A stretch of 21,599 nt of DNA from a virus, in IMG/VR virus record IMGVR_UViG_3300044733_005097, positions 1 to 21,599 of that record; one strand, 5' to 3'. The notes beneath the pieces are model-generated. The model was not told the origin of the DNA and ran no database searches. It saw only the letters and a list, made by a program, of their open reading frames with translations. Below are positions 7,588-20,806 of the stretch, one piece after another. The translations under genes were made by a program, and so were the position numbers. How positions within the stretch are numbered: position 1 is the first letter of the stretch; each line of letters begins with the position of its first letter.

Positions 7588-7661
7588 TCCTCGGTAGCTC
7601 AGTAGGTAGATGCGAGAAGCTGTTAACTTCTATGTCGCTGGTTCGATTCCAGCCCGAGGAG
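7588..7661 (+). tRNA. tRNA-Asn (anticodon GTT), bulged D stem
   Basis: A full cloverleaf can be drawn by hand. The acceptor 7588-7594 pairs with 7654-7660 over seven pairs. The anticodon stem is AGAAG/CTTCT with loop CTGTTAA (7620-7626), giving anticodon GTT. The T stem is GCTGG/CCAGC with loop TTCGATT, and the discriminator is G7661. The D stem GCTC (7597-7600) pairs with GA and GC only if T7611 is bulged out, one base more than in ordinary tRNA-Asn. CCA is not encoded (GCA follows). It lies eight bases after the reductase gene and just before a terminator, so it is probably processed from the 3' end of that transcript. Confidence 0.93.
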
Positions 7662-7682
7662 CATAAAAAATCAAAAGATTTT

Positions 7683-7703
7683 ACCCCCGCAAGGGGGTTT
7701 TTT
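7683..7703 (+). terminator. Rho-independent terminator after tRNA-Asn
   Basis: Stem ACCCCC/GGGGGT closed by a GCAA tetraloop (7689-7692) and followed at once by a T run (7698-7703). This is the strongest hairpin in the window and probably ends the transcription unit holding the replication and nucleotide genes plus the tRNA. A weaker AAAATC/GATTTT hairpin lies just before it (7667-7682). Confidence 0.88.
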
Positions 7704-7705
7704 AT

Positions 7706-7713
7706 TCTAAATA
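7706..7713 (+). promoter_or_regulatory. Candidate late promoter box TCTAAATA
   Basis: Seven of eight bases match the T4 late promoter TATAAATA. It lies directly after the terminator and eight bases before the protease start, which has no Shine-Dalgarno sequence. The same octamer recurs at 9886-9893. Confidence 0.4.
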
Positions 7714-7721
7714 TTTTTGCC

Positions 7722-8519
7722 ATGTTGCTGAGGCCATTAATCCTCGCAGTTGTGATGGCGACAAGCGTTGCTTGCAATTCGCTATCGTCTCCTCCAAAAC
7801 AAGTTGAATCAGAACAGGAAAAAACACAAGGAGTAGCGGAAGTCCCCGCATTCTTATTGGATTCTTCGAAGTACGATTCCATCGGGCTAGCTGAGGATGA
7901 CCGCTACTCCTGTGTAGGTGCTATAGTTACACAATCCGGTGATGTAATAGGATCTGCGGTTCTTATTCACAGAAACGCAATACTAAGTGCACAGCATTGC
8001 TTTGCATTATCTGATGATCCTCCAAAATATTTTTGGACTCATGGAGGACAATTTTTAAGAATAGGTAAAGTGCATAAAGCAAGCCCATATGTTCCTGGGT
8101 TTCCAATGAATGATATTGTTCTTTGCATTTTGGAAGAAGACTGCTATGAACCACCAGCAGAACTTTCAAAGATAACGTGGGATCTTATTCCGGGAGAAGA
8201 ACTTATTACTGTTGGGTGGAGCCTCGGATACAAAAAGGTAAGCGAGAAGGGTGTAATGCGCTACTACGGCTCTTTAATTGAAGATAATGGACAAGTGATG
8301 AGAATGCTTGCACTCAATGGTTCAGTTTACTACGGTGATTCTGGTGGAGGAATTTTTGAAGATTCTGGAAAATTGGCAGGGATAATATCATTCTTTGGTG
8401 TAGATCCATCTTCTGGGAATGTAATAGATAATGGAGGCATAAAAGTTTGTTACTATTACGAGTGGATAGATAATATTATGAAAGAAAGGTTCTGTGACTG
8501 GCCTTGGTACGAAGAATAA
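7722..8519 (+). CDS. Trypsin-like serine protease with lipoprotein signal
   Basis: A 265-residue protein with a chymotrypsin-fold (family S1) peptidase. The catalytic triad is complete: His92 in LSAQHC, Asp131 in MNDIVL and Ser207 in GDSGGG. C93 next to the histidine and C64 are placed like the conserved disulphide of trypsins. Residues 1-18 (a short hydrophobic stretch ending SVAC) look like a lipoprotein signal with the lipidated cysteine at C18, followed by a flexible Ser/Pro/Glu linker to about residue 45. The expected product is a membrane-anchored, envelope-exposed protease. The reading frame extends upstream through the tRNA, but the ATG at 7722 is the first start after the terminator and gives the signal peptide. 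It is not related to T4-type prohead protease gp21. The substrate is unknown; a role in host envelope modification, lysis or superinfection control is inference. Confidence 0.82.
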   Translation: MLLRPLILAVVMATSVACNSLSSPPKQVESEQEKTQGVAEVPAFLLDSSKYDSIGLAEDDRYSCVGAIVTQSGDVIGSAVLIHRNAILSAQHCFALSDDPPKYFWTHGGQFLRIGKVHKASPYVPGFPMNDIVLCILEEDCYEPPAELSKITWDLIPGEELITVGWSLGYKKVSEKGVMRYYGSLIEDNGQVMRMLALNGSVYYGDSGGGIFEDSGKLAGIISFFGVDPSSGNVIDNGGIKVCYYYEWIDNIMKERFCDWPWYEE

Positions 8520-8525: not shown

Positions 8526-9074
8526 ATGTTCCACATGTTAATAGGTGTAGATTATTCAATAACTTGTCCATGTCTCTGTTTGTATGACGAGAGAAAGCCA
8601 TTTACATTTGATAATTGTTTTTTCTACTACTTGACAAACACTAAAAAATACGCAGATAAAATTTTGCCAAATATTACTGGTGAAAGTTTTCAGGAATACG
8701 TGGCTGATACTGACAGATTTGACAGTATTTCAGACTGGGCTATAAATTTGTGTATTGGGGCATCTGAAGTGGCTATAGAAGGGTATTCCTATGGTTCCCA
8801 AGGAAGAGTATTCCATTTGGCCGAAAATATGGGAATTTTTAAACATAAGCTCTATAAGGCGGGGGTTCCTCTGACGGTCGTAGAGCCGTCCAAGTCAAAG
8901 AAACACGCCACGGGCAAAGGTAACGCTGATAAAGGGCTAATGTACGAACACTTCTCGAAAGAAACCAAAACAAATTTAATGGCAAATTTTGGTCAAAAAA
9001 CTTTATCCAATCCCATAACCGATATAGTGGACAGTTATTATATTTTAAAATATTTGGTTAATAATAAAATTTAA
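8526..9074 (+). CDS. RuvC-like Holliday junction resolvase
   Basis: A 182-residue RNase H-fold nuclease that probably cuts branched DNA made by UvsX-driven recombination before packaging. The acidic residues of RuvC-type enzymes are visible: D9 in LIGVDYS, E85 in VAIEGYSYG, and D166 and D169 in NPITDIVDS. The segment VVEPSKSKKHATGKGNADKG matches the lysine-rich stretch that precedes the last motif in phage RuvC-like proteins. This takes the place of T4 endonuclease VII (gp49), an unrelated fold. A second ATG at 8535 (MLIGVDYS) would start directly at the first strand and is an equally good start; neither has a Shine-Dalgarno sequence. The last four bases overlap the stop of the convergent zinc-ribbon gene. 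Confidence 0.8.
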   Translation: MFHMLIGVDYSITCPCLCLYDERKPFTFDNCFFYYLTNTKKYADKILPNITGESFQEYVADTDRFDSISDWAINLCIGASEVAIEGYSYGSQGRVFHLAENMGIFKHKLYKAGVPLTVVEPSKSKKHATGKGNADKGLMYEHFSKETKTNLMANFGQKTLSNPITDIVDSYYILKYLVNNKI

Positions 9075-9373
9075 CGAACAATTCTTCCAGCATGCTGCCC
9101 AGAATTGTCTAATTTATCATGGAATCTTTTTGGTACTTGACCGTTATTTTTGATTTTATCAATCACATCTTTCCATGCGGAACCAGTAACTTTAGAAGGA
9201 GTTAAAGTCATATCCATGCCTATGGAATTTCTTTGCTGGCCCCAATCTTTAATTACTTTCTTTTTTCCACAACATGGGCATTTATCTTTTAAAGGCTGAT
9301 CCGATTCACTCATTTTTAAAAACAATTCAAATGAATGATCACACTCCTCACATTTAAAACTATAATTAGGCAT
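9071..9373 (-). CDS. FmdB-type zinc-ribbon protein
   Basis: A 100-residue protein starting MPNYSFKCEECDHSFELFL, the typical opening of the FmdB/CxxC zinc-ribbon family. C8-x2-C11 and C32-x2-C35 would bind one zinc. The remainder, with SAWKDVIDKIK and a basic tail, looks flexible or helical. The family is often annotated as regulatory, but its molecular role is not well defined; protein or nucleic-acid binding is likely. It is the second gene of a minus-strand pair and overlaps the HNH gene by eight bases. Its stop codon overlaps the stop of the resolvase gene on the other strand (9071-9074). Confidence 0.82.
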   Translation of the reverse strand: MPNYSFKCEECDHSFELFLKMSESDQPLKDKCPCCGKKKVIKDWGQQRNSIGMDMTLTPSKVTGSAWKDVIDKIKNNGQVPKRFHDKLDNSGQHAGRIVR

Positions 9374-9863
9374 TACTATTCTTTCTAAAAGTAATTAGCA
9401 TGTGATCGAACAAGAATCCGTAAGATGGTTCTTTTGGTTTATTTTTTAGATCCATTTTTGCTTCTTTTGGAGTTCTATTTCCTTTATGCAAATTACAATC
9501 TTTACATGCTGCTACTAGATTGACCCATGTAGAACCACCGCCCTTACATTTTGGTATGACATGATCCAAAGTTGCAGTTTTTGTGCAAAGATCAATACCA
9601 CAATATTGGCACTTATAATTGTCTCTGCGGAGAATGTTTATTCTATTGGGTGCAGCCTTTTTAAAAGGCAATTTTACATAGTATTTTAATATCAAAATTT
9701 TAGGAATTTTTACAATTTTTGATACTGATACTACCTCATAATAATCTAAACTATTTTCATCTATCCAAACTTTATCTTTTGATAAAAGTTTAAAAGCTTT
9801 GGAAATGGTGATAATATTGAGAGGAGTATTATCTTGGTTTAACAGGAGTACCTGTTTTTTCAT
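9366..9863 (-). CDS. HNH endonuclease
   Basis: A 165-residue DNA endonuclease of the HNH (McrA-like) family. The N-terminal part (VLLLNQDNTPLNIITISKAF) is the usual pre-domain of free-standing bacterial and phage HNH proteins. The nuclease core follows: CQYCG, TLDHVIPKCKGG with the catalytic Asp-His, VNLVAACKDCN and HKGNRTP; two Cys pairs bind zinc. I start it at ATG 9863 because the family opens close to the VLLLN strand and because a promoter-like CATAAATA lies ten bases upstream. An in-frame ATG at 9905 would add fourteen residues and overlap the start codon of the gene on the + strand. It could be a homing-type or DNA-processing nuclease; sequence alone does not decide. It is followed by the zinc-ribbon gene. 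Confidence 0.85.
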   Translation of the reverse strand: MKKQVLLLNQDNTPLNIITISKAFKLLSKDKVWIDENSLDYYEVVSVSKIVKIPKILILKYYVKLPFKKAAPNRINILRRDNYKCQYCGIDLCTKTATLDHVIPKCKGGGSTWVNLVAACKDCNLHKGNRTPKEAKMDLKNKPKEPSYGFLFDHMLITFRKNSNA

Positions 9864-9873
9864 ACCTTTTAAG

Positions 9874-9881
9874 TATTTATG
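9874..9881 (-). promoter_or_regulatory. Candidate late promoter box CATAAATA for the minus-strand pair
   Basis: Seven of eight bases match TATAAATA, reading leftward and ending ten bases before the HNH start at 9863. It lies four bases from a similar box pointing the other way, making a compact divergent control region. Confidence 0.45.
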
Positions 9882-9885
9882 AAAA

Positions 9886-9893
9886 TCTAAATA
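9886..9893 (+). promoter_or_regulatory. Candidate late promoter box TCTAAATA for the right-hand block
   Basis: Identical to the octamer at 7706-7713 and ten bases before ATG 9904, which has no Shine-Dalgarno sequence. It is the mirror partner of the minus-strand box at 9874-9881. Confidence 0.45.
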
Positions 9894-9903
9894 TTTTACA
9901 GCC

Positions 9904-11469
9904 ATGGATAATAAACAACATAGACAATTTTATTGGGAAGTCAAGGATTTCTTGACAAAAAAACATAATAATGATGCATCTATTGAAAAGTCACCCACTC
10001 TGAAAGATGTTAGTAAAAATATTTTAGAACAAAATAATATTTTTAAACAAAAAAAATCACAGGCCACCGAAAACACAATAAGTAATACTAAAAATGTTTT
10101 AAGCTCTCTAGAAAAACAAAGACGCGGTTATGATGTTTCTTGTGTTGCTTACACAAGAAATAATATAGCAAATCCTTTTAATAAAAATGTTATTTATGAA
10201 TATACAGACAGCAATGAAACCATTGCAAGAAAAAGAATGGAAGCTGAAGCTAGAAATGAAAGAGCAAGAGCAAGAAATACGGCAGAAAATGACAGACTTT
10301 CTCAAGCAAAGCAAGATGTAAAAAGAAAAAGAGAAGAAGACGAAGCATATCAATTTAATCAAGAAATTTCAGCAGGATCGCAGGGTCAAGGTCCAACCCC
10401 ATCTGGTGGTAATTTAGCGGATACACTTGAAATGGGCAGAGATGGTAATCCAAATCTTCCAGCAGATACTCCAGAAAATAGAGCTCGTATGGGACAATGG
10501 AGAAGAGAAAAAGCAGAAACAAAACAGGCAGAATATATGGCTTCACGGATTGCAGAACTTTCTGGAAAAAAACCAGAAGAACTAACGTCACAAGAAGCTG
10601 GTGAACTTTCATTGATGAAATCAATGACACAAGGAAAAGTAGCCACAAGAGGTCTTGAAGGAAAAATACAAGGAAACTTGGAAGCCAAAGCAAAGGTATC
10701 TCCGCTAGCAATGGAACCAACTGCTGGCACCGATGATACTGGAAGAACCCAAGAACAGATTGATATGGATGCAATGGCTTCCGGTAAACAAAGAAAAGCT
10801 GCCGCACAAGATATGATGCAAAGAACTATTGGAAGATCGCAAGAAGATTTAGTTTCTCGAACTCAACAAGCTGGCGCCGAAGAAGCGGAACAGAGAGCTC
10901 AAGATAATGCAGACTTTTATGCTCAACAAGCTGAGAAAAAAAGAGCTGCTATGCAAAACACTCGTATTCAAGGAACGAATATGACATACGGACAATTTGA
11001 AGCTGAATATGGAAGACCATATGATGCAACAAATCGTGAAGATTCAACTATGCTAGTTCGTGCAGCTAGTAATACATCAGCTTTTAGAGTATCGCCTACA
11101 GCAAGAGCTTTGGACCAAACAACCGTAGATTTTAACAGAACCTATAGAGGTATTAATGCCCAAAATGCAGCAAGAGAAGGAGAACTTGATCGCAGAGTTG
11201 ATCAATCACAAATTTCTCTAGATCAATTTAATGCAGATAGAAGGGGGACTGTTCAAAGAGAAATTTCTTCAATACAAGCAAGACCCGGTTTTGTTCGTGG
11301 TGTTGCCCAAAGCATGCTTCCTTCAGGCACAACACCCCCAAAAATCGGTCAACCAAATACACCAACGGGTGGTGCAAAACCAACAGGGCAACCAGCTAGA
11401 ATTGGAGCTCCATCACTAAGTCAAGCAATAAATAGTGTTTTGGGAAACAATAATACAAGACGGGCCTGA
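9904..11469 (+). CDS. Charged, helical virion-type protein of unknown function
   Basis: A 521-residue protein with no recognised domain. It is rich in Ala, Arg, Glu and Gln, nearly free of cysteine, and contains long helical stretches (about residues 95-150, rich in Arg/Glu with RARARNTAENDR, and about 315-350, AEQRAQDNADFYAQQAEKKR). These are separated by Gly/Pro/Thr-rich disordered segments, and the C-terminus (GTTPPKIGQPNTPTGGAKP and onward) is also disordered. The opening MDN with KDFLTKK resembles the next protein, MDN with IKDLLSKR, suggesting a shared N-terminal signal. Composition and place resemble internal, scaffold-like or ejected virion proteins of phages. This is inference from style, not homology. 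It is followed after four bases by the 1181-residue gene. Confidence 0.7.
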   Translation: MDNKQHRQFYWEVKDFLTKKHNNDASIEKSPTLKDVSKNILEQNNIFKQKKSQATENTISNTKNVLSSLEKQRRGYDVSCVAYTRNNIANPFNKNVIYEYTDSNETIARKRMEAEARNERARARNTAENDRLSQAKQDVKRKREEDEAYQFNQEISAGSQGQGPTPSGGNLADTLEMGRDGNPNLPADTPENRARMGQWRREKAETKQAEYMASRIAELSGKKPEELTSQEAGELSLMKSMTQGKVATRGLEGKIQGNLEAKAKVSPLAMEPTAGTDDTGRTQEQIDMDAMASGKQRKAAAQDMMQRTIGRSQEDLVSRTQQAGAEEAEQRAQDNADFYAQQAEKKRAAMQNTRIQGTNMTYGQFEAEYGRPYDATNREDSTMLVRAASNTSAFRVSPTARALDQTTVDFNRTYRGINAQNAAREGELDRRVDQSQISLDQFNADRRGTVQREISSIQARPGFVRGVAQSMLPSGTTPPKIGQPNTPTGGAKPTGQPARIGAPSLSQAINSVLGNNNTRRA

Positions 11470-11473
11470 TTAA

Positions 11474-14400
11474 ATGGATAATATTCGTAAACTTAATCCA
11501 ATAATAAAAGATCTTCTTTCAAAAAGAAATACTATTTTGAAAGAAGATGGAGCTGATATTAGAGCAAGAAGATCAGAGGAATCAAGATTAAGAAAAGCTG
11601 GTGTTTTAAAACCAAATGAAGAGCTACCGTCAGTAGCAAAACAAACTGGCGAACAATATAAAAAAAGTTTAGCTTCCTTTAGACAATGGGGTCTCGGAAA
11701 GCTTATGGATCTTTCCGATGCTAGTGGATGGACTGATGCCTCACAATATGTTTTAAGTCCTGCAGCATCAGTATATTTTGGTGCTGGTGTAGAAGAGTTA
11801 GGAAGAGCCGAATCGGAAATGAAAGATAAATTACCGGGAAAATATAAAAGACTACGCGATGTTTTAGTTCAAGATTTGGTTAGAGAACGAAAAGCTGAGT
11901 TCGATGCAGGCAATACAAATATAAGTGAAAAAGATTTATTAACAAAAGTAATATCTAAAAATAAAGATTTAGCAGATGTTTTAACTAGAGATGAATATGA
12001 AACTGTTGCTGGTGGAATTACAAATCCTCTTCGTATTGAAACAGAAGATGCAGAAGGAAATAAAAAATTAGAAATAGATTTGCCTAGATGGACTGGAATA
12101 AGTCAAAGTGCGGCAAATTTTTATGATGTTGCAGCGGGTGCAGCTGATGTTTTAACTGATCCGGCTCAATTAGCAGCTGGTGGTGCTGTTGGCGGTGCAT
12201 TTAATTTAGCAACCAGAGGAGCAGGCGCAATTGGAGGAAGAGTTTTAGCAGGAGCGGCCTCTAGAGCACCAACAGGGGTTAAAACCGCAGCAGAAGCATC
12301 AAGAAGATTTTTACCACCAATATTAGCAAGAGCAAGAAGTGCAGAAGAATTGGGAAAAGCCGTGGGAAGAGCTGGGGTCGGCGCAGCTGGAGCAGCCATG
12401 ATAGCCCCCGGTGCCATTGAAGCAGCATCCCAAGACAAATTAGCAAGATGGGCTGGTGAAATGCTTGGTAGTGCTGCACCATTTGTATTGGGCTCCAAAT
12501 TGGCTGATAGAGCTATTGCAGCTTACAATAAATCAAAAACTACACCAAAGCCAGAGGTTTCTGCAAAACCAGAGACTGCACCAGAAGCAGCAAAAGATAT
12601 AGAAGTTTCGGGTGAAACAAAATTTGAAATTCCACCTTCTGGAACATACCCAGCAAAAAATTTACCAAGAGCAGATTTTGGTGCACCAACAAAATCTTTT
12701 ATAGAAATATCTAAAAAACCAGAATATGCAAATACTGGAGAAATGCTTAAAGCTTTTGGTTATTTACCAAATATCTATAAGGCAACCAAAGGGAGAAGAG
12801 GTGCTGCTTTTACTGCACAAATCCCAGAACCAGCAAAAACTGAAGTTTCTAAACCGTTAGCACCAGTTGAAATATCAAGAGAAACAATAACTAATCCTCT
12901 TTACGAACCCCCAGCAGTAGGATCTCAAAGAGTTGATTCTTTTGTTAAAACAAATGTTCCAATTACATTCTGGACACCACCAGAACCAATTGGAGGCGAA
13001 GGAAAAGCAAAAGAAAGAAGAAGAAGAAGATCTGAACCAGAAATTTCTCCAAAACCACCAGAAGAACCAACAGTTCCTGCAGTTGAAACACCCAAAAAAT
13101 CAGAAACACAAGTTGATTGGAATGCTCCTGCTACTCCACCTGTACCAGAATATTCTTTAAAACCAGATTGGGCCAATACTGGAGAAATGTTAAAATCTGT
13201 TGGTTATTTGCCAAACATCTATAAGGCAACTAAAGGAAGACAGGGTGGTGCTTTTACTGCACAAATTCCAGAACCAGCACCAATCCCCGAACCAAAAACA
13301 ACTTTGTCTTTAACAGATATAAAGACAATAGAACAAATAAAAAGACCACAAGAATCAATTCTTACTAGAGCAGCAAAAGAAGCGGAGGCTTCTCTAAAAT
13401 CAAAAGAAGTACCTGCAGAAACAGCAAAACCTGAAATATCTCCAAAACCACCGGAGGAATTGACTCCCGAGCAAATTCAAGATTTATTAAAAAGTCTTTC
13501 TCCAGTTTCATTTCAGTTTCCGAAACGAGCACCAAAACCATCTCTGTCAAGAGTGGCAGCAACAGTAGCTTCAATTCCGGGTGCAGGATCAAATCTGCTG
13601 CCAGCTCAAACAACTTTAGCAGATTTATTAAGACTTCCACAAGTTGCAGAAGTTAAACCAGCAATTGAAATTTCTGTACCAAAATGGGCAACAGAAACAA
13701 AACCAGTAGAAATAATTAATGGCGAACAAATTGCAAAAGCTGTTGCGGACTTAATGCCACAAATGAAAGCTCCGACTGCAAAACCGGGAGTAATAGAAAA
13801 ACCAGCTACAGCAACAAAACTTGATGACGCTTTACCGCCTTCAGCAAAACCTGAAAAAGCAGTAACAAAAACAGCTGAAAGAATTACAATACAGGAACCA
13901 TCAGCGATGTCTGGTGCAAAAAGACCTTCTGCAGTTTCGGCTCCCACATCAACGCCCGCTACTGCACAACCACAACAGCCAGAACAACAACCTACAACAG
14001 ATAGGGATAGACAAGCACCTGAATTAGTTGATACTTCTGGGGGTGCAGGATCTGGTGGCGGATCTACAGTTAAACAAGTTAAAACAATTACGTTACAAGA
14101 ACCATCAGCGATATCTGGTTCAAAAAGACCTTCTGCAGTTTCGGCTCCCGAAAAAACACCCGATTCCGATATTCCGGATGATGCTTCCACACAACCAGAA
14201 CAACAACCTACAACAGATAGGGATAGACAGCCACCAGAGTTGGTTGGGCCTTCTTCTGCGGGATCCGGTGGAACACCTGCCTATAAACAAGTTAAAACAA
14301 TTACGTTACAAGAACCATCAGCGATATCTGGTTCAAAAAGACCTTCTGCAGTTTCGGCTCCCGAAAAAACACCCGATTCCGATATTCCGGATGATGCTTC

Positions 14401-15019
14401 CACACAACCAGAACAACAACCTACAACAAATAGAGATAGACAAGCACCAGAATTGGTTGAACCTTCTTCTGCAGGATTCGGTGGCAAAGCTACCGGAAAA
14501 TCAGCTGAAACGATTACAATACAGGAACCGTCACAGATATCTGGTGCAAAAAGACCTTCTGCAGTTTCGGCTCCGAGTGTAACACCAGAAACCAAAGAAA
14601 CCAAAGAAACTAAAGAAACAAAAACTATTTTTGATATGATGCGCGATATGTATAGAGATTTTGAAAAAGCGCAAGAAAAAATAACAAATAAGCAAGAAAA
14701 AGATACAGAACAAAATACTCAAGATGATGAAACTTCACAAGTTCCACAAGTCCCACAAATAATAGTACCTGTAACAAAAAATATTTCAACTGGTGGAACT
14801 GATAAAGGTGGAATTGGTGGTTCAGAAAAAGGTCCACCACCAAAAAATATCGGTAAACCAAGACAAAAAGGAAAATCATCAAGAGCAGGAATTCCATCTA
14901 TAGGAGGGGGCGACACTGATTATGGAGGTTTAAAACAAGGTGGTGGATTTAAATTGGGTGCAAATGTGAATCTAGGAGCGAGAGCTCTTGGAAGATTCAC
15001 TCAATACTTGCACATTTAA
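11474..15019 (+). CDS. Large repeat-rich protein, probably virion-associated
   Basis: A 1181-residue protein, the largest here, with no domain that I can name. Residues 1-220 are mixed helical and charged. Residues about 225-355 are rich in Ala and Gly with several hydrophobic, membrane-active-looking segments (for example AAGGAVGGAFNLATRGAG and AGVGAAGAAMIAPGAIEAA), reminiscent of phage ejection or tape-measure proteins. Residues 360-800 are Pro/Glu/Lys-rich with two copies of a 40-residue module at 415-454 and 563-602. Residues 804 to about 1040 are four tandem copies of a repeat of 68-71 residues containing QEPSAISGSKRPSAVSAP. A short ETK repeat and a Gly/Lys-rich tail follow. The N-terminus contains ILKE at 21-24, a possible prohead-protease-type site. 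The gene starts four bases after its neighbour and has no clear ribosome-binding site. Confidence 0.75.
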   Translation: MDNIRKLNPIIKDLLSKRNTILKEDGADIRARRSEESRLRKAGVLKPNEELPSVAKQTGEQYKKSLASFRQWGLGKLMDLSDASGWTDASQYVLSPAASVYFGAGVEELGRAESEMKDKLPGKYKRLRDVLVQDLVRERKAEFDAGNTNISEKDLLTKVISKNKDLADVLTRDEYETVAGGITNPLRIETEDAEGNKKLEIDLPRWTGISQSAANFYDVAAGAADVLTDPAQLAAGGAVGGAFNLATRGAGAIGGRVLAGAASRAPTGVKTAAEASRRFLPPILARARSAEELGKAVGRAGVGAAGAAMIAPGAIEAASQDKLARWAGEMLGSAAPFVLGSKLADRAIAAYNKSKTTPKPEVSAKPETAPEAAKDIEVSGETKFEIPPSGTYPAKNLPRADFGAPTKSFIEISKKPEYANTGEMLKAFGYLPNIYKATKGRRGAAFTAQIPEPAKTEVSKPLAPVEISRETITNPLYEPPAVGSQRVDSFVKTNVPITFWTPPEPIGGEGKAKERRRRRSEPEISPKPPEEPTVPAVETPKKSETQVDWNAPATPPVPEYSLKPDWANTGEMLKSVGYLPNIYKATKGRQGGAFTAQIPEPAPIPEPKTTLSLTDIKTIEQIKRPQESILTRAAKEAEASLKSKEVPAETAKPEISPKPPEELTPEQIQDLLKSLSPVSFQFPKRAPKPSLSRVAATVASIPGAGSNLLPAQTTLADLLRLPQVAEVKPAIEISVPKWATETKPVEIINGEQIAKAVADLMPQMKAPTAKPGVIEKPATATKLDDALPPSAKPEKAVTKTAERITIQEPSAMSGAKRPSAVSAPTSTPATAQPQQPEQQPTTDRDRQAPELVDTSGGAGSGGGSTVKQVKTITLQEPSAISGSKRPSAVSAPEKTPDSDIPDDASTQPEQQPTTDRDRQPPELVGPSSAGSGGTPAYKQVKTITLQEPSAISGSKRPSAVSAPEKTPDSDIPDDASTQPEQQPTTNRDRQAPELVEPSSAGFGGKATGKSAETITIQEPSQISGAKRPSAVSAPSVTPETKETKETKETKTIFDMMRDMYRDFEKAQEKITNKQEKDTEQNTQDDETSQVPQVPQIIVPVTKNISTGGTDKGGIGGSEKGPPPKNIGKPRQKGKSSRAGIPSIGGGDTDYGGLKQGGGFKLGANVNLGARALGRFTQYLHI
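12716..12835 (+). repeat. 40-residue module, copy A
   Basis: In-frame 120-base module inside the large repeat protein (residues 415-454). It encodes KPEYANTGEMLKAFGY and continues through IYKATKGRRGAAFTAQIPEP. Copy B lies 444 bases downstream with most residues conserved, so this is likely a folded or binding unit rather than filler. Confidence 0.85.
13160..13279 (+). repeat. 40-residue module, copy B
   Basis: Second copy (residues 563-602), KPDWANTGEMLKSVGY and onward, of the same length as copy A without gaps. Differences from copy A are conservative and many are silent at the base level, so the duplication is older than that of the 213-base repeats. Confidence 0.85.
13883..14602 (+). repeat. 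Tandem repeat array, period 204-213 bases (68-71 residues), four copies
   Basis: Copies start at 13883, 14087, 14300 and 14513, always in frame. Each opens with IT(I/L)QEPS followed by SG(A/S)KRPSAVSAP, then a variable Pro/Glu/Asp linker, QPEQQPTT(D/N)RDRQ, and a Gly/Ser stretch. The fourth copy is cut short and leads into an ETK repeat. Positions 14071-14215 and 14284-14428 are identical over 145 bases, indicating very recent duplication or gene conversion. Confidence 0.93.
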
Positions 15020-15046: not shown

Positions 15047-15715
15047 ATGTCTTTATCAGAATTAAAAAAGTTTAATCATAATTTTATTGAAATAGATTGT
15101 AACTTAAAAGAAGTAACAATTGATGGAAAAAGATTTTATGAAACACCCGGTGGTGTGTTTCCCAGTGTGACAACTGTTGTTGGTTTCGAAAAACAACAGT
15201 TTTTTGCTAAATGGAGAGAAAAAAATCCAGAAGAAAGCAAAAGAGTCACAACAAGAGGTACAAAATTTCATTCTCTAATTGAAAAATATCTTAGAAATGA
15301 AGAAATTGATTTTGATGACGTTACTTCTGCAAATAAAGTTTTATTTAATTTGATTAAACCGGAATTAGATAAAATTGATAATATCATATCTATAGAAAAT
15401 CCTCTTTGGTCTAAAACATTAAAACTAGCTGGAAGAACTGACTGTATAGCTGAATATGATGGAAAAATGACTATCATTGATTTTAAGGCCAGTACAAAAG
15501 AAAAAAGAGAAAGAGATATTGATAATTATTTTGCACAAGCAACAGCTTATGCGTTAATGTTTCAAGAAAGAACAAATATTATAGTAGATAATTTTGCTAT
15601 TTTAATTGCATGTGAAGATGGAATAAAACAGGTATTCCAAGGAAACCCAATTAAATATGTAAAACATTTGCATGGATTGATAACCAATTATAGAAAAGTA
15701 AATAATGTTTTATAA
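15047..15715 (+). CDS. PD-(D/E)XK exonuclease (RecB/MGME1-like)
   Basis: A 222-residue nuclease of the PD-(D/E)XK superfamily, of the kind found in T4-like aquatic phages and related to the mitochondrial exonuclease MGME1. Motifs in order are RGTKFHSLIEKYL (helix with His and Glu), LAGRTDCIAEYDGKMTIIDF (the first catalytic Asp in GRTD and the second in IIDF, followed by KAS with the catalytic Lys), and YFAQATAYALMF (the Q-x-x-x-Y helix). A single-strand or end-processing exonuclease in recombination or packaging is likely. An in-frame TTG at 15038 would add three residues; ATG 15047 is preferred. It overlaps the next gene by eleven bases. Confidence 0.85.
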   Translation: MSLSELKKFNHNFIEIDCNLKEVTIDGKRFYETPGGVFPSVTTVVGFEKQQFFAKWREKNPEESKRVTTRGTKFHSLIEKYLRNEEIDFDDVTSANKVLFNLIKPELDKIDNIISIENPLWSKTLKLAGRTDCIAEYDGKMTIIDFKASTKEKRERDIDNYFAQATAYALMFQERTNIIVDNFAILIACEDGIKQVFQGNPIKYVKHLHGLITNYRKVNNVL

Positions 15716-16304
15716 ACCAAAAACTTTAGAAGGACAAGTAAACACAAAAGGAACAAAACTTTGGGTTCAAATGAATCAAAGTACTAAAGCTGTTAAATTA
15801 AGAAAAAATTTTATTGAAAAATATGGTGGCGTTTTTTTAGAAAAAGACGGTGAATGGCTTTGGACAAATCCAATAAAAGAAAAAAACGGATATTGGTTAA
15901 AACGCGTTGACACAGAAGAAAAAGTATTTTTTGAAAATATGAGTGAATTTGGTAAAAAATACGGGTTAACACCAGTAAAAATTTGTGAACTTTTAAATGG
16001 AAAACGCAAAACATATAAAGGCTGGACAGCGGTAGAATTAAGAGCAGTAAAAGAGGGAACTGGATCCCACGAAAAGATAAAAGAAAAGAAAGTAAATAAA
16101 ATCCAGATAAAAATGGGTGCTGTTTTAGTAGACACAAAAACGAATGAAATTTTGAATATTTCTTGTATCGCTGATTACGCAAGGGAAAATAAGTTAGATT
16201 ACGCTAATTTAAGAAAATTGGCTACAGGAAAATCAAAAACATACAAAAATTTAAAACTTTACAACCCATTAGAAAATTATAAGGTTACTCCAGAGCCTAA
16301 ATAA
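15705..16304 (+). CDS. Tandem homing-endonuclease-type DNA-binding modules, no nuclease
   Basis: A 199-residue basic protein. Two units resemble the NUMOD/IENR1-type DNA-binding modules found at the C-terminus of phage homing endonucleases. Residues about 63-111 contain NMSEFGKKYGLTPVKICELL and then NGKRKTYKGW; residues about 140-185 contain CIADYARENKLDYANLRKLA and then TGKSKTYKN. Each would place a helix-turn-helix on DNA. The first 60 residues have a Trp/Lys-rich segment that I do not recognise. No GIY-YIG, HNH or LAGLIDADG catalytic motif is present. It could be a relic of a homing endonuclease or a specific DNA-binding partner. It overlaps the exonuclease gene upstream by eleven bases; the next protein carries an HNH-like domain at its far end. 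Confidence 0.75.
   Translation: MFYKPKTLEGQVNTKGTKLWVQMNQSTKAVKLRKNFIEKYGGVFLEKDGEWLWTNPIKEKNGYWLKRVDTEEKVFFENMSEFGKKYGLTPVKICELLNGKRKTYKGWTAVELRAVKEGTGSHEKIKEKKVNKIQIKMGAVLVDTKTNEILNISCIADYARENKLDYANLRKLATGKSKTYKNLKLYNPLENYKVTPEPK
16296..16303 (+). promoter_or_regulatory. Possible late promoter box CCTAAATA
   Basis: An octamer of the same NNTAAATA form as elsewhere in the window, seven bases before ATG 16311. It overlaps the AAA-TAA end of the preceding gene, so part of the match may be forced by coding. Confidence 0.25.
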
Positions 16305-16310
16305 TTGGAG

Positions 16311-18674
16311 ATGAACTTTAAATCACTTTTATTCAAATTAACAGAAGCCAGAACATCAAAAGAAGCTTTTACTAAGTCCGGAGAGGCTGAAAAAAAGGAA
16401 AGAGCAAAAGGCTCTTCTACGGACTTAAAATCAAAAGACGCTGCGCGTAAGCGTATAGAACGCTCTAGAATGGTTCCTAGAGACAAGAAGCCGAAACAGG
16501 AACTTGTCAAGGAAGTAATTTCTGTAAAAACTAATGAAGGAAAACTTCAATTAATTTTTAAAGATTCATTTAATGAAAAATATCACACTAGAGTTGGTAA
16601 AGATAGCCTATCTCTTGGGGAAGCGCAGCAATTAACAAGAGATCCAAATTTTGAACAGACAAGAGCCTCAAAACTTTTATTTGGTGAAGTAAAAACAAAA
16701 GAGCCAAAGAAAAAAGAAAATAAAAAAGAAAAAACAGAAGAAAGAAAAAGTGAATCTTCTAAAGGCACTGCTAAACCGAAAGAAGCAGAAGAACAAAAAC
16801 CAAAAGCCCGTAGACTTTCAAAAGAAGAAATATTTCAAAACTTGTCTCAGATGAATGGTGAACAATTGGCCCAATTGCCACCAGAATTGAGACAAGAATA
16901 TTTTATGGCACAAAGAAAGCCATTAGATAATAATAATTTTGATAATTTGACATATGAATCTTTAAGCATTAAATTTTCTTTAAATCCAATATCTTCAAGC
17001 CCATTCAACCAACAAGTGTTGAATGCTTTAATTTTCTTGGCAAAAATGAAAATGGGTGCAAGCGATCAAGAAATGCAAACTCTCACATCTCTAAATCCAG
17101 CGGGTTTAGATTTTACAAGAAATGCATTTTATACTGCTAAAAAGATTTTATCACAATTAGGTGAAGCTTGTATACAAAATATGTTGACTTCTTTGGAGTC
17201 TGGCCCAACTGCTATAAACAGCGATGGAATGTCAGACATGTCTTGTGGAAATTATAGATTTAAAGTTTCTGCAGGAGGCGAAATAAGCCTCTCTACATCT
17301 GAAATGAGTCAATCAGCAAAGTCGTTTAAAGGATATATTGGTGCGGCTTTGGCTGGCGCTTTATCAAATCCAGATTTTATTAAAAATGATAAAATGCTTG
17401 GAGAAATTTTTCAAAATGGTGCAGAAATAAAAGCGGGTTTTTCAAAAGAATTGATTCCCGATGAATATCTTGATTTGATATTAAAAAATGAAAAATTAAC
17501 AAATAAATTTATGTCAACTCCAGTAATTGACATGAATGGTAATAATTTGGGAATGGTTTTAAGTAAAGATGGTAAATTAAATCCAAAAGTTTCTCTTAAT
17601 AATTATCAAGAGGAATGGAAAGATTTATCAAAGGGAATGATAAAAGGAAAAAATAGCCAATTTAAATCTTTTATAATAGGACAAGTATTAAAAAATGTTT
17701 TAAGAGGTGATGGAATCGTTTCCCCCAAAGTTGCAGCTAATCACGTAATTACAATAAATGGTGTGTTTCCTCTTACAGATGATTATATAAATGTAATTGC
17801 CAATCAATCTGAATTGGATTTAAAACCTGCTAAAAATATTATTACAGCACAAAATGTCATAAATTATAAACCATCTGCTGCTGAAATGTTAAAAAAATAC
17901 AGTGTTATAGTTGAACAAAATGAAAACAATGTTCTTAAAAAAATGATTGTTCCAATAGACTCCGTAGATGCAGTTCAATTAATGGTTTCAAATTTGATTA
18001 ATAACTATGAAATATCAATGAATGCAAGTCTATTGCCCGGATTTAAACCTAAAGATTTAAATGCTGTCGAATATAACCACATAAAAATTGGTAAAAAAAT
18101 GATCAAAATACCAGTTGAAAAGGGTCAAAAAATAGCCAATTCTTTGATGGAAAATACTGCGGTTATTATGAATGAAATTCTTTTAGAATCTTTATCAAAT
18201 AATTTTGTATTAAATTCATTGGTAAAAGTCAATTTAATTGATGCTGCTGAAGAATCATTTATAAAAATGGGTAATCAAGTTCTTCTTGAAAATGAGGTAA
18301 GACCGCAAGAATTAAAATTTATTTATCAAAATTTATTAGAAAAAATTGAACAAGAACCATTTAGATATTTTATGTTAATCAATCTTTTAAATTCCATTGA
18401 AGAAGAATATAAAAGAGATTATGACATGGAATATAGAAATTATCATGGAAAGCCAAAGCAGAGAAAAGAAAGAGCTGCCAGAACAAAAGCCAGAGAACAG
18501 ATGGAAAAAAAGGGAGTTGTAAAAAAGGGTGATGGAAAAGATATAGATCACAAAAAACCATTACGTTCTGGTGGTTCGAAAGGTATAAATAATCTACGGG
18601 TCAGAGATAGATCTAAAAATAGAGCAGATAACGGCCATAAAAAAGGCGAGAAACAAAATAAGGATTGGAAATGA
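16311..18674 (+). CDS. 787-residue virion-type protein with C-terminal HNH-like domain
   Basis: A long protein in three parts. Residues 1-190 are basic, charged and probably disordered, opening with MNFKSLLFKLTEARTS. Residues about 200-700 are Asn/Leu/Ile-rich and helical with no domain that I recognise. The C-terminus, from about residue 700, is an HNH-like nuclease domain: an Arg/Lys-rich lead-in (YHGKPKQRKERAARTKAR), then GDGKDIDHKKPLRSGG with the catalytic Asp-His, INNLRVRDRSKNR with the Asn and Arg positions, and a basic tail. The N-terminal LTE followed by Ala resembles T4 gp21 cleavage sites in internal proteins. An upstream in-frame TTG (16305) is possible; I prefer ATG 16311. It overlaps the next gene by four bases (ATGA). 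Function unknown; an internal or ejected DNA-binding or DNA-cutting protein is inference. Confidence 0.78.
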   Translation: MNFKSLLFKLTEARTSKEAFTKSGEAEKKERAKGSSTDLKSKDAARKRIERSRMVPRDKKPKQELVKEVISVKTNEGKLQLIFKDSFNEKYHTRVGKDSLSLGEAQQLTRDPNFEQTRASKLLFGEVKTKEPKKKENKKEKTEERKSESSKGTAKPKEAEEQKPKARRLSKEEIFQNLSQMNGEQLAQLPPELRQEYFMAQRKPLDNNNFDNLTYESLSIKFSLNPISSSPFNQQVLNALIFLAKMKMGASDQEMQTLTSLNPAGLDFTRNAFYTAKKILSQLGEACIQNMLTSLESGPTAINSDGMSDMSCGNYRFKVSAGGEISLSTSEMSQSAKSFKGYIGAALAGALSNPDFIKNDKMLGEIFQNGAEIKAGFSKELIPDEYLDLILKNEKLTNKFMSTPVIDMNGNNLGMVLSKDGKLNPKVSLNNYQEEWKDLSKGMIKGKNSQFKSFIIGQVLKNVLRGDGIVSPKVAANHVITINGVFPLTDDYINVIANQSELDLKPAKNIITAQNVINYKPSAAEMLKKYSVIVEQNENNVLKKMIVPIDSVDAVQLMVSNLINNYEISMNASLLPGFKPKDLNAVEYNHIKIGKKMIKIPVEKGQKIANSLMENTAVIMNEILLESLSNNFVLNSLVKVNLIDAAEESFIKMGNQVLLENEVRPQELKFIYQNLLEKIEQEPFRYFMLINLLNSIEEEYKRDYDMEYRNYHGKPKQRKERAARTKAREQMEKKGVVKKGDGKDIDHKKPLRSGGSKGINNLRVRDRSKNRADNGHKKGEKQNKDWK
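18660..18664 (+). promoter_or_regulatory. Shine-Dalgarno site that fixes the start at 18671
   Basis: AAGGA lies six bases before ATG 18671, which itself overlaps the previous stop as ATGA. This favours 18671 over the in-frame TTG at 18665. Confidence 0.6.
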
Positions 18675-19822
18675 TCTCAAAAAATGTAAATTTAATTTTA
18701 GAAAAAGTATTTTCTGATTCTGGTCTCGGCAAATGGTTCAACAAAGAATCTGCTGGAGGTGGACCCGGGTGGGATCGATATAACACAAAAGGCGAAAGAA
18801 TTGGAAAATGTGGTGACGCAAAAGAAGGTGAATCATATGCAGCCTGCTTAAGCAAACAGAAAGCAAAAAAGTTAGGTAAAGAAAAAATAGCTTCATTTGT
18901 TCGTCGTAAAAGATCTGCACAGAAAAAAGCTGGAAGATCCGATAAAGGCGATGTAAAAGGAAAAGGAAAGAAACCAGTATTTGTTGATACTGGAATTTCA
19001 AAAATTGAAGAATCATACTCAAAATTTATTGTTGAGAACGCACAAAACTTTTTAACAATTCAGTATCCAATAATAGAAGCAAAAGAGCTTTTACCATGTG
19101 ATTTAATTGTTTCTAAAAATGGAAATTTATTTAATGTAAATTTTGTAGAGTTAATTGAAAACAAGTATAAAGTTATTTTTGAAAACGAAGACGGTGAAGA
19201 AATAGAAGAATTATTTGATCCAGAAACAGTAATGGGATTTGTTGATACTACTGAAGGAATTGAACTTAATGAATTTGATGAAAAAATTGAAATTTATGAA
19301 GATAGCGGTAAAAAAGTAAAACTCAACAAAATCATGCGGGGTGATGTAAAGAAGTACAAAGTTTATGTAAAAAATGATAAAGGGAATGTCGTAAAAGTAA
19401 ATTTTGGCGATCCAAACATGGAAATCAAGCGAGACGATCCAGATCGCCGTAGAAACTTTAGAGCTAGACATAATTGCGATAATCCCGGACCACGTTGGAA
19501 AGCGCGTTATTGGGCTTGTAGAACATGGAGCGCAAAGCCAGTTAGTGCCATGCTAAAAGAATCCGAGAATCTAGAAGAAGCTACTAAAAATAAAGCCAAA
19601 AATCCTAAAAAATGGAGTTCTTGCATTAGCCAAGCTAAACAAAAATTTGACGTATATCCATCCGCCTACGCCAATGCTTGGGCTGCAAAGTGCTATAAAT
19701 CTAAAGGAGGAAAGTGGAAAAAACTTTCTGAGGATATTGCTCAAGAAACACTGGATAGCATAAAAAATGTAACTTATAATCCAAATTTATATGGTTTGAT
19801 AGAAAAACATAAAATGAATTAA
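18671..19822 (+). CDS. Protein with three small Cys-containing basic modules
   Basis: A 383-residue protein built from short modules that I have seen in T4-like aquatic phages but that have no known function. Module 1 (about residues 15-108): LGKWFNKESAGGGPGWDRY, then CGDAKEGESYAAC, then FVRRKRSAQKKAGR, resembling a DUF5872-type unit. A beta-rich acidic region follows (about 120-250). Module 2 (about 255-290): RRNFRARHNCDNPGPRWKAR followed by YWACRTWSAKP. Module 3 (about 310-355): NPKKWSSCISQAKQKFDVYP followed by SAYANAWAAKCYKSKGGKW. Each module has two cysteines, module 2 also a histidine, so metal binding or packing by disulphides is possible. The start is decided by a Shine-Dalgarno sequence at 18660-18664. 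Probably a virion or maturation-related protein by context. Confidence 0.72.
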   Translation: MISKNVNLILEKVFSDSGLGKWFNKESAGGGPGWDRYNTKGERIGKCGDAKEGESYAACLSKQKAKKLGKEKIASFVRRKRSAQKKAGRSDKGDVKGKGKKPVFVDTGISKIEESYSKFIVENAQNFLTIQYPIIEAKELLPCDLIVSKNGNLFNVNFVELIENKYKVIFENEDGEEIEELFDPETVMGFVDTTEGIELNEFDEKIEIYEDSGKKVKLNKIMRGDVKKYKVYVKNDKGNVVKVNFGDPNMEIKRDDPDRRRNFRARHNCDNPGPRWKARYWACRTWSAKPVSAMLKESENLEEATKNKAKNPKKWSSCISQAKQKFDVYPSAYANAWAAKCYKSKGGKWKKLSEDIAQETLDSIKNVTYNPNLYGLIEKHKMN

Positions 19823-19848: not shown

Positions 19849-20403
19849 ATGAAATTTAAAGAATTACTTTCAAATATCCGAACTTTAGTAGAAAATGCGC
19901 CGGAGGCTACCACGGGCGGTGGTGGTCTCTATGATATGGGTCAACCAAACCCCGGACCATCCGCGTTAACAAATAAAGGTACATTTAATTTACAGATGCC
20001 AAATTCAATTGATGCAATAAATGCATTATTGTATACTTTTTCTGCAAAAGATTATATTGATCCCGATTCCCTTCTCGGAGTTGTAAAACAAAAATTAAAT
20101 CATTTTGGATTGGATTTTATGTGCAAAACAAACAAAATGATGGATGGGCAAAATATGTACGAATTGGTTCAATATGGTAGCCCACAGCTAGGTGTTTATG
20201 GACAAAATCCATATGAAGATGTAAATAAAAAAGGTTTCAAACAAGGTGATGGAATTAAAGAAAAATTGGGATATTCATTAGCTCTTATGGTTCAAGTTCA
20301 AAAACTTCCAAGTGGATTGAGACGAGTTGAAATGGTAATTGTTCCGATGGATACATCTTCATATAATAGTGATAAAGATTCTGACTGTGGTTGCCAGCAC
20401 TAA
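19849..20403 (+). CDS. Hypothetical protein, virion block
   Basis: A 184-residue protein with no recognised domain. It opens with MKFKELLSNIRTLVENAPEA, much like the 787-residue protein (MNFKSLL and onward), followed by a Gly/Pro-rich linker (GGGGLYDMGQPNPGPSALTN). Residues about 50-165 look folded, with alternating helices and strands (SIDAINALLYTFSAKDY and YSLALMVQVQKLPSG, then RRVEMVIVPMD), and the tail is acidic and ends DCGCQH. The N-terminal LVE could be a prohead-protease-type cleavage site. It has a clear ribosome-binding site, AAGGA, five bases before the ATG. The next gene follows after four bases. Confidence 0.7.
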   Translation: MKFKELLSNIRTLVENAPEATTGGGGLYDMGQPNPGPSALTNKGTFNLQMPNSIDAINALLYTFSAKDYIDPDSLLGVVKQKLNHFGLDFMCKTNKMMDGQNMYELVQYGSPQLGVYGQNPYEDVNKKGFKQGDGIKEKLGYSLALMVQVQKLPSGLRRVEMVIVPMDTSSYNSDKDSDCGCQH

Positions 20404-20407
20404 AATA

Positions 20408-20806
20408 ATGAATTCAAAATACGAATCTTTGACAGAAGAAAATTTTATGAACTTCTGTCAAAGATATTATTTTAACCCCGAATGCTCGGGAAAAGATGAA
20501 TTTATAGATGATATGAAGCGCGTGAAATATGTTAAAAGACTTCTTCAAAAAATACATAAACATAAAACTTTAAAATCTATACGTGAGAGATTAATAATTA
20601 ATCATATTATAATTTTAAAAAATGTATTTGGTGAAGAAAAATTGATGAGAATATTGTTTTTTAAATTAGACCCGAGATTGCATTCTTATTTAAAATCTTT
20701 TTTAGTATTTTTAGAATTTAAAATTATAGATATTCCAGAAGTAAATTATAAAGTTTTAAATACAGATCCAAGAGTTGATAGAAAACTTACACAAACTGAA
20801 AACTAA
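20408..20806 (+). CDS. Small conserved-type phage protein, helical
   Basis: A 132-residue basic, mainly helical protein. The core is a chain of helices with many Leu, Ile and Lys residues: DEFIDDMKRVKYVKRLLQKI, then IRERLIINHIIILKNVFGEE, then LMRILFFKLDPRLHSYLKSF. I recall short proteins of this pattern in T4-like phages of aquatic bacteria, with no function assigned. The start at ATG 20408 is taken because the frame upstream runs antiparallel to the gene before; there is no clear Shine-Dalgarno sequence. The N-terminus ESLTE also holds an L-x-E motif. It lies between two probable virion-block genes. Confidence 0.68.
   Translation: MNSKYESLTEENFMNFCQRYYFNPECSGKDEFIDDMKRVKYVKRLLQKIHKHKTLKSIRERLIINHIIILKNVFGEEKLMRILFFKLDPRLHSYLKSFLVFLEFKIIDIPEVNYKVLNTDPRVDRKLTQTEN

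Follow-up and report, generated by a model that had tools for sequence, protein, structure and literature searches.

The gene and its neighborhood

The window, by which we mean the whole stretch of 21,599 nucleotides of viral DNA that was analyzed, carries on its plus strand, at positions 16311 to 18674, a gene whose product, P0001, consists of a short leader, a large body, and a C-terminal HNH domain. The reading frame opens with an ATG at 16311, closes with a stop codon at 18672-18674, and encodes 787 amino acids; a TTG two codons 5' of the ATG is the mechanical start of the open reading frame. The original prediction had placed a 787-residue gene here, and the gene proves to be real and to have these bounds, with full-length relatives at 33 loci. 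IMG/VR scans yielded these 33 loci, and a search with a profile, in which 80 of the 162 matches listed were kept, raised the number from both scans to 113, which collapsed to 79 distinct proteins of 774 to 807 amino acids. Because these sequences are related, counts over the 79 relatives are less independent than they appear. Our alignment A1 has 28 rows: P0001 plus the 27 loci that remained of the 33 after six near-identical ones were omitted. The whole protein has no match above the cut-off in Pfam or NCBIfam, and searches of 50,697 phage records with the whole protein and with the body retrieved relatives of the HNH part only.

Directly upstream of P0001 lies an open reading frame (15705-16304, plus strand) with a NUMOD-like DNA-binding match (PF22083, E value of 0.0067, below the cut-off; phrog_2081, 1.5e-9), which is found at 79 of the 79 loci with room for it. 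No HNH core was seen in this ORF, and it could be a DNA-recognition partner of P0001. A gene for a PD-(D/E)XK exonuclease is also located upstream, at 78 of 78 loci with room. On the other side, the start of the next gene (18671-19822, plus strand) overlaps the stop codon of P0001 in an ATGA, an arrangement shared by 60 of the 79 relatives. Part of its product is similar to the C-terminal part of a leader-plus-cytidyltransferase protein of phage Melnitz (36% identity to residues 471-631, E value of 1.5e-13), with 53% identity to a protein of HTVC008M. Then come a leader-like ORF (MKFKELL...LVE; 19849-20403, plus strand), which is syntenic with a Melnitz ORF (E value of 1.9e-6) and present at 75 of 75 loci with room, and a gene for a DUF7207 protein of the S-SM1 gene cluster GC198 (20405-20806, plus strand; PF23837, 5.8e-30; 41% identity to SSM1_196, E value of 7e-24), present at 73 of 73.

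The genes 3' of P0001 (DUF7207, the next gene, and two others) match the gp41-gp61/nrdA interval of the Kyanoviridae HTVC008M, Melnitz, and S-SM1. In S-SM1, the gp41-gp61 interval includes GC190, which resembles CTP-transferases (PF01467, 5e-7), begins with the leader MKKFSAFLNEA, and, in the virion data of PMC3037559, was detected by mass spectrometry in purified particles. Although P0001 shows no sequence homology to GC190, the protein so detected, it occupies the same interval and thus corresponds to a virion protein in position rather than in sequence. Within the syntenic interval, no ORF of Melnitz or HTVC008M matched the A1 profile credibly (best E value of 0.029).

By sequence reading, genes elsewhere in the window are UvsX-, helicase-, and primase-like; in this fragment, no head gene of known function was identified. 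A trypsin-like serine protease with an N-terminus that looks lipoprotein-like by eye is encoded at 7632-8519 on the plus strand (PF00089, 3.2e-10, above the cut-off), and the ORF at 8526-9074, also on the plus strand, appears RuvC-type-resolvase-like by eye, a Pfam search returning no match. On the minus strand, a second HNH gene, of the cysteine type (9366-9905; PF14279, 2.7e-15), adjoins a zinc-ribbon gene, and both are found, as judged by N-terminal sequence, in two large relatives, G001 and G002. The protein of 1,181 residues encoded at 11474-15019 (plus strand) contains four 120-nt repeats spaced 204 to 213 nt apart and has no credible family match.

The HNH domain and the body

An HNH-like core had been predicted in the last 80 to 90 residues of P0001, and comparison with its relatives upholds this. 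The domain covers residues 701-787 (18411-18671, plus strand), with the motifs GDGKDIDHKKPL at residues 740-751, INNLRV at 759-764, and SKNR at 768-771. The core residues D746-H747 (18546-18551), N761 (18591-18593), and N770 (18618-18620), all on the plus strand, are invariant in the 28 sequences of A1, and the D-H/N/N set is retained in 79 of the 79 distinct relatives: a strict HNH pattern matches 71 of them, the remaining eight all have the D-H, N, and N, and a wider pattern matches 79 of 79. In 76 of the 79, a pattern search gave the spacing H-14-N-9-N, which we take to be reminiscent of that of the nickase I-HmuI. Mean pairwise identity in A1 reaches 0.82 in the domain versus 0.32 to 0.64 in the other segments, and the first four residues of the protein stand at 0.95. 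Residues 698-784 match phrog_4590 (E value of 2.8e-21), to which no function name is attached and which also takes in free-standing copies of the domain. The Pfam HNH family PF01844 is matched by nine of 10 domain members (best E value of 0.0017), the copy of the window itself falling below the curated cut-off (15.4 versus 21.4 bits), and free or divergent relatives match PHROG families named HNH endonuclease or endonuclease VII (3.8e-5, 1.7e-4, and 1.1e-5). On sequence grounds, the last ∼87 residues of P0001 are thus an HNH domain of the D-H/N/N type.

Modeled alone, the domain is predicted to fold as helix-helix-strand-strand-helix, with a mean pLDDT of 72 (∼80 in the core). The model contains the strand-strand-helix order that a beta-beta-alpha metal fold would have, its structural matches having Foldseek E values above 0.6 and VIA-align Z scores of at most 4.9. 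The best Foldseek E value was 0.62, so that no single match is significant; the top rows, judged by title, are HNH-Cascade complexes, colicin and pyocin DNases, the Gme HNH nickase, and an Rhs endonuclease, and the title of one of these rows, 8w1p, makes no mention of HNH. The first VIA-align match was the Gme HNH nickase 4h9d (Z score of 4.9, rmsd of 5.8, 73 residues aligned).

The domain is fixed in the P0001 family, since 81 of the 82 loci with a body (80 from a body-only search and two more from a search with a divergent body) continue into it and the single locus without it (1/82) is cut by the end of the locus. It is kept even where the bodies are only 33% identical, and the divergent members L062 and L063 align with the A1 profile over nearly their full length. 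L366, a protein of 676 residues encoded in the same gene interval, resembles P0001 in its N-terminal region and its HNH domain, lacks most of the P0001 body, and carries an extra tail; this form was seen in one contig only (G008).

The body had been described as having no similarity to known nucleases, a statement that holds both by sequence and against the PDB: the model of whole P0001 gave no PDB match at an E value of 0.001 or better, and profile searches of PDB sequences with A1 or A2 gave no match. A search of BFVD with the whole model did retrieve cyanophage proteins of 276 amino acids (E values of 2.4e-6 for S-RIM50 and 1.9e-5 for S-IOM18), and the central part of the body, about residues 301-520 (17211-17870, plus strand), where we tentatively place this link, gave weak hhalign matches (E values of 0.0078 and 0.37, with probabilities of 5.1 and 0.2). 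A 276-residue protein of S-IOM18 (phrog_22045), which may be the BFVD entry, is encoded in the same gene interval as P0001, and the cyanophage proteins display, by eye, a PKTD...SxK pattern reminiscent of PD-(D/E)xK enzymes. We consider the relationship of the body to these proteins as a lead only, profile comparison giving no confirmation.

Copies of the domain also exist outside the P0001 family. Among the matches listed for the domain profile were at least 80 loci, of which at least 24 encode long proteins (777 to 807 residues) that end in the domain and at least 55 encode short free proteins, one being a fragment. In the 50,697 phage records, free HNH proteins of ∼95 residues occur in Zobellviridae, and the domain of P0001 is 49 to 57% identical to five annotated free phrog_4590 proteins. 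We read by eye the gene surroundings in eight chosen loci: the free copy of L065 adjoins a terminase-like gene, that of L098 is located between portal-like and scaffold-like genes, and that of L070 lies within a replication-type module. As a consequence of this variety of settings, the HNH domain alone is no proof of virion cargo. In L070 (3318-5799), as in many contigs, the free gene stands between a gene of ∼221 amino acids, PD-(D/E)XK-like by eye, and a gene of ∼519 amino acids. A match in Escherichia phage Bas87 was set aside (31 residues, E value of 0.04, amid nucleotide-metabolism genes).

Leader, candidate cleavage motifs, and phage background

In T4, internal proteins reach the core by means of leaders of 10 to 19 residues, which gp21 then takes off by cleavage after Glu, as outlined in PMC9026906 (see also PMC5694885). 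P0001 begins with a comparable stretch, residues 1-12 (16311-16346, plus strand), which ends in L10-T11-E12 and offers a candidate prohead protease site at E12/A13. The motif [LI]xE is found within residues 6-24 of 77 of the 79 relatives, versus a mean of 23.3 (maximum of 36) in shuffles and of 13.6 (maximum of 25) in internal control windows, and it persists while its position and the neighboring residues vary, which bears out the capsid-targeting-like N-terminus of the original prediction.

A second set of candidate motifs emerged from the analysis. Just before the HNH domain, P0001 contains I696-E697-E698 (18396-18404, plus strand), and an [LI]xE cluster is new at this junction, present in 65 of the 79 relatives as compared with a mean of 36 (maximum of 47) in shuffles and of 8.6 (maximum of 17) in internal windows; given the high shuffle values, composition accounts for part of this signal. 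At most of the 14 junctions without a strict [LI]xE, the position of L/I is taken, by eye, by V, M, or F. A hydrophobic-x-E also directly precedes the domain in the divergent fusions L062, L063, and L366 and in a leader-HNH gene of contig G007. The candidate cut at 696-698 coincides with the point at which the free HNH proteins begin.

G007 is a contig of 152 kb with S77 protease matches, and it encodes an HNH protein of 96 residues in which the leader MNKSELKALIKEILME directly precedes the domain, the gene having a GTG start preceded by AAGGAG. Leaders of the MNKSELKALIKEILME kind are carried by seven of its 206 ORFs, the HNH gene included (background rate of 0.05%), and three leader-bearing ORFs lie at most 2 kb before the protease match. 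A separate leader-HNH gene was seen in this contig only. We regard as new that an unrelated phage joins the same predicted HNH domain to a leader common to six of its other ORFs.

The larger relatives place P0001 in a T4-like background. A T4-type gp23 (E value of about 1e-135) and an S77 prohead protease (about 1e-40) were found in two of the six relatives searched, namely, G001 (137 kb) and G002 (126 kb), and the other four, all shorter contigs, gave no match to either. The gp23 N-termini read LVE-D in G001 and LTE-D in G002. G001 has three ORFs with leader-like N-termini among its 147 (0.22 expected), one of which looks doubtful by eye, and G002 has seven among its 148 (0.14 expected). The late-promoter-like motif NATAAATA occurs within 60 nt upstream of 21 ORFs in the sense and six in the antisense orientation in G001 (147 ORFs) and of 23 and six, respectively, in G002 (148 ORFs), gp23 being among the latter. 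ATAAATA is found within 40 nt before the gene in 40 of the 79 family members in the sense and in none in the antisense orientation (maximum of eight in shuffles). The window itself has CTAAATA, one mismatch away, at 16297-16303 on the plus strand, and when the window was scanned by itself, the motif did not exceed chance.

Possible roles of P0001

P0001, if packaged, had been proposed to be a nuclease that arrives with phage DNA, for example, against host chromosome, plasmids, or rival phages. The use of P0001 as such a weapon would be conjecture. The HNH part of this proposal stands, the domain being strongly conserved, and packaging is supported indirectly, through the leader [LI]xE, the T4-type protease of relatives, the late motifs, and the synteny with a virion locus. 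With a head-address-like leader and a terminal domain of the DNA-cutting type in one protein, a nuclease may be among the contents of the phage head. Our working hypothesis, to which we assign a probability of about one half, is that P0001 is an internal head protein of the T4 type that is made late, is targeted to the prohead, bears a nuclease domain, and probably leaves the head together with the genome. P0001 would be expressed late and brought into the prohead core by its N-terminal leader, which the S77 prohead protease would cut off after the [LI]xE motif; the mature protein would be packed with the DNA and would exit with it at infection, and its C-terminal D-H/N/N domain would then nick or cut DNA in the newly infected cell. 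A more elaborate version, which we entertain only tentatively, is that P0001 is a precursor that the prohead protease would cut twice, after the leader and after the [LI]xE at 696-698, to free in the head a phrog_4590-like HNH enzyme of ∼89 residues that would enter the host with the phage DNA.

A nuclease stored beside the DNA of the phage poses a problem of self-damage. Experiments on T4 summarized in PMC9026906 indicate that nucleases fused to the T4 CTS get packed into heads and that packed staphylococcal nuclease destroys T4 DNA once calcium is added. Searches of six relatives for methylases matched PF02086 in none, PF01555 in none, and PF00145 in one, and self-protection by methylation is therefore not evident. 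It would be guesswork to say whether the metal supply, the body, or a late release keeps the putative P0001 nuclease in check.

The main rival, which we judge rather unlikely, has P0001 acting in the prohead or at the portal, where the HNH domain would nick or trim DNA during packaging or head filling. Self-damage would be eased, since cutting would be confined to assembly, and the free copies next to terminase-like (L065) and portal- and scaffold-like (L098) genes point the same way. HNH packaging proteins that act with the terminase exist, HK97 gp74 being one. An HNH protein is likewise described as required for packaging in phage PaoP5 (PMC13083879, citing Kala 2014), and those of PaoP5 (PMC13083879) and GVE2 (PMC5304195), phage-encoded proteins with the HNH fold that is predicted for P0001, act with the terminase in the accounts given there. 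The P0001 gene, however, is far from the terminase gene in both large relatives (33-34 kb versus 89-91 kb in G002 and 45 kb versus 112-114 kb in G001) and is linked to the virion-protein locus instead.

That P0001 is a head protein in which the HNH fold and basic helices merely hold DNA, without useful catalysis, strikes us as improbable. The HNH domain and the N-terminal part are indeed rich in Lys and Arg, and the structure matches of the domain are weak, but retention of the four catalytic-type residues in all of the 79 relatives, within a domain far more conserved than the remainder of the protein, argues against such a role. Still less probable is a late enzyme that remains unpackaged in the infected cell and acts there on replication intermediates or host DNA; the PD-(D/E)XK exonuclease and NUMOD-like genes constantly found upstream would suit it, whereas the leader with its conserved [LI]xE and the synteny with the MS-supported virion locus would not. 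We give very little credence to a homing-type or mobile HNH that became joined to a late gene accidentally and is passively carried: the NUMOD-like upstream ORF and the second HNH gene of the window recall such elements, yet a homing element is expected to be patchy and the domain is fixed across the body loci, including those whose bodies are only 33% identical.

To our knowledge, most head cargo proteins of T4-type phages are unstudied, and we found no description, in the open-licence PMC papers searched, of a natural HNH or other nuclease as cargo of T4-like heads. Both the internal proteins of T4 and nuclease cargo introduced by engineering are already known; what would be new is natural HNH head cargo. 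If true, it would add a new effector class beside restriction inhibitors and an ADP-ribosyltransferase and would raise the question of how an enzyme that cuts DNA can be kept in the head next to the phage's own genome. Because members of the P0001 family turn up in numerous environmental phage contigs, the answer would bear on many uncultured viruses. With two [LI]xE sites and shared leaders to work from, the idea of a nuclease cargo can be tested directly.

The closest precedents are IPI-III and Alt of T4, which, as presented in PMC9026906 and PMC12373910, are targeted to the capsid, processed by gp21, and ejected. P0001 resembles them in its short leader with a Glu-ending cleavage-like motif and in having relatives with T4-like head genes, an S77 protease, and a late-promoter-like motif. 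It differs in being far larger than the T4 internal proteins and in carrying an HNH domain. In activity, too, a contrast would be expected, given that, according to the same sources (PMC9026906, PMC12373910), the T4 internal proteins act as inhibitors of restriction enzymes and Alt acts as an ADP-ribosyltransferase, whereas P0001 has the HNH domain. With GC190 of T4-like cyanophages such as S-SM1, P0001 shares the interval, the kind of leader, and an enzyme domain behind that leader, the domain being nucleotidyltransferase-like in GC190 and HNH in P0001. T4 heads engineered to contain EcoRI or staphylococcal nuclease (PMC9026906) are an artificial version of a nuclease behind a capsid-targeting leader that would, if borne out, be natural in P0001. 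Predictions of multidomain proteins that are injected are widespread (PMC5512222); the polyvalent proteins portrayed there combine, in one polypeptide, several distinct domains that differ in activity, whereas the HNH domain is the only one recognized in P0001.

The free phrog_4590 proteins of Zobellviridae and other phages have the same core residues as the domain of P0001 but are short and devoid of leader and body. One free HNH gene, in Pelagibacter phage HTVC204P (L201, 7004-7222), is located directly 3' of an annotated putative internal virion protein gene. Another copy of the domain, 82% identical to that of P0001 (L222), belongs to a contig that had been assigned by binning to a Chitinophagaceae MAG, a possible but weak hint as to the host.
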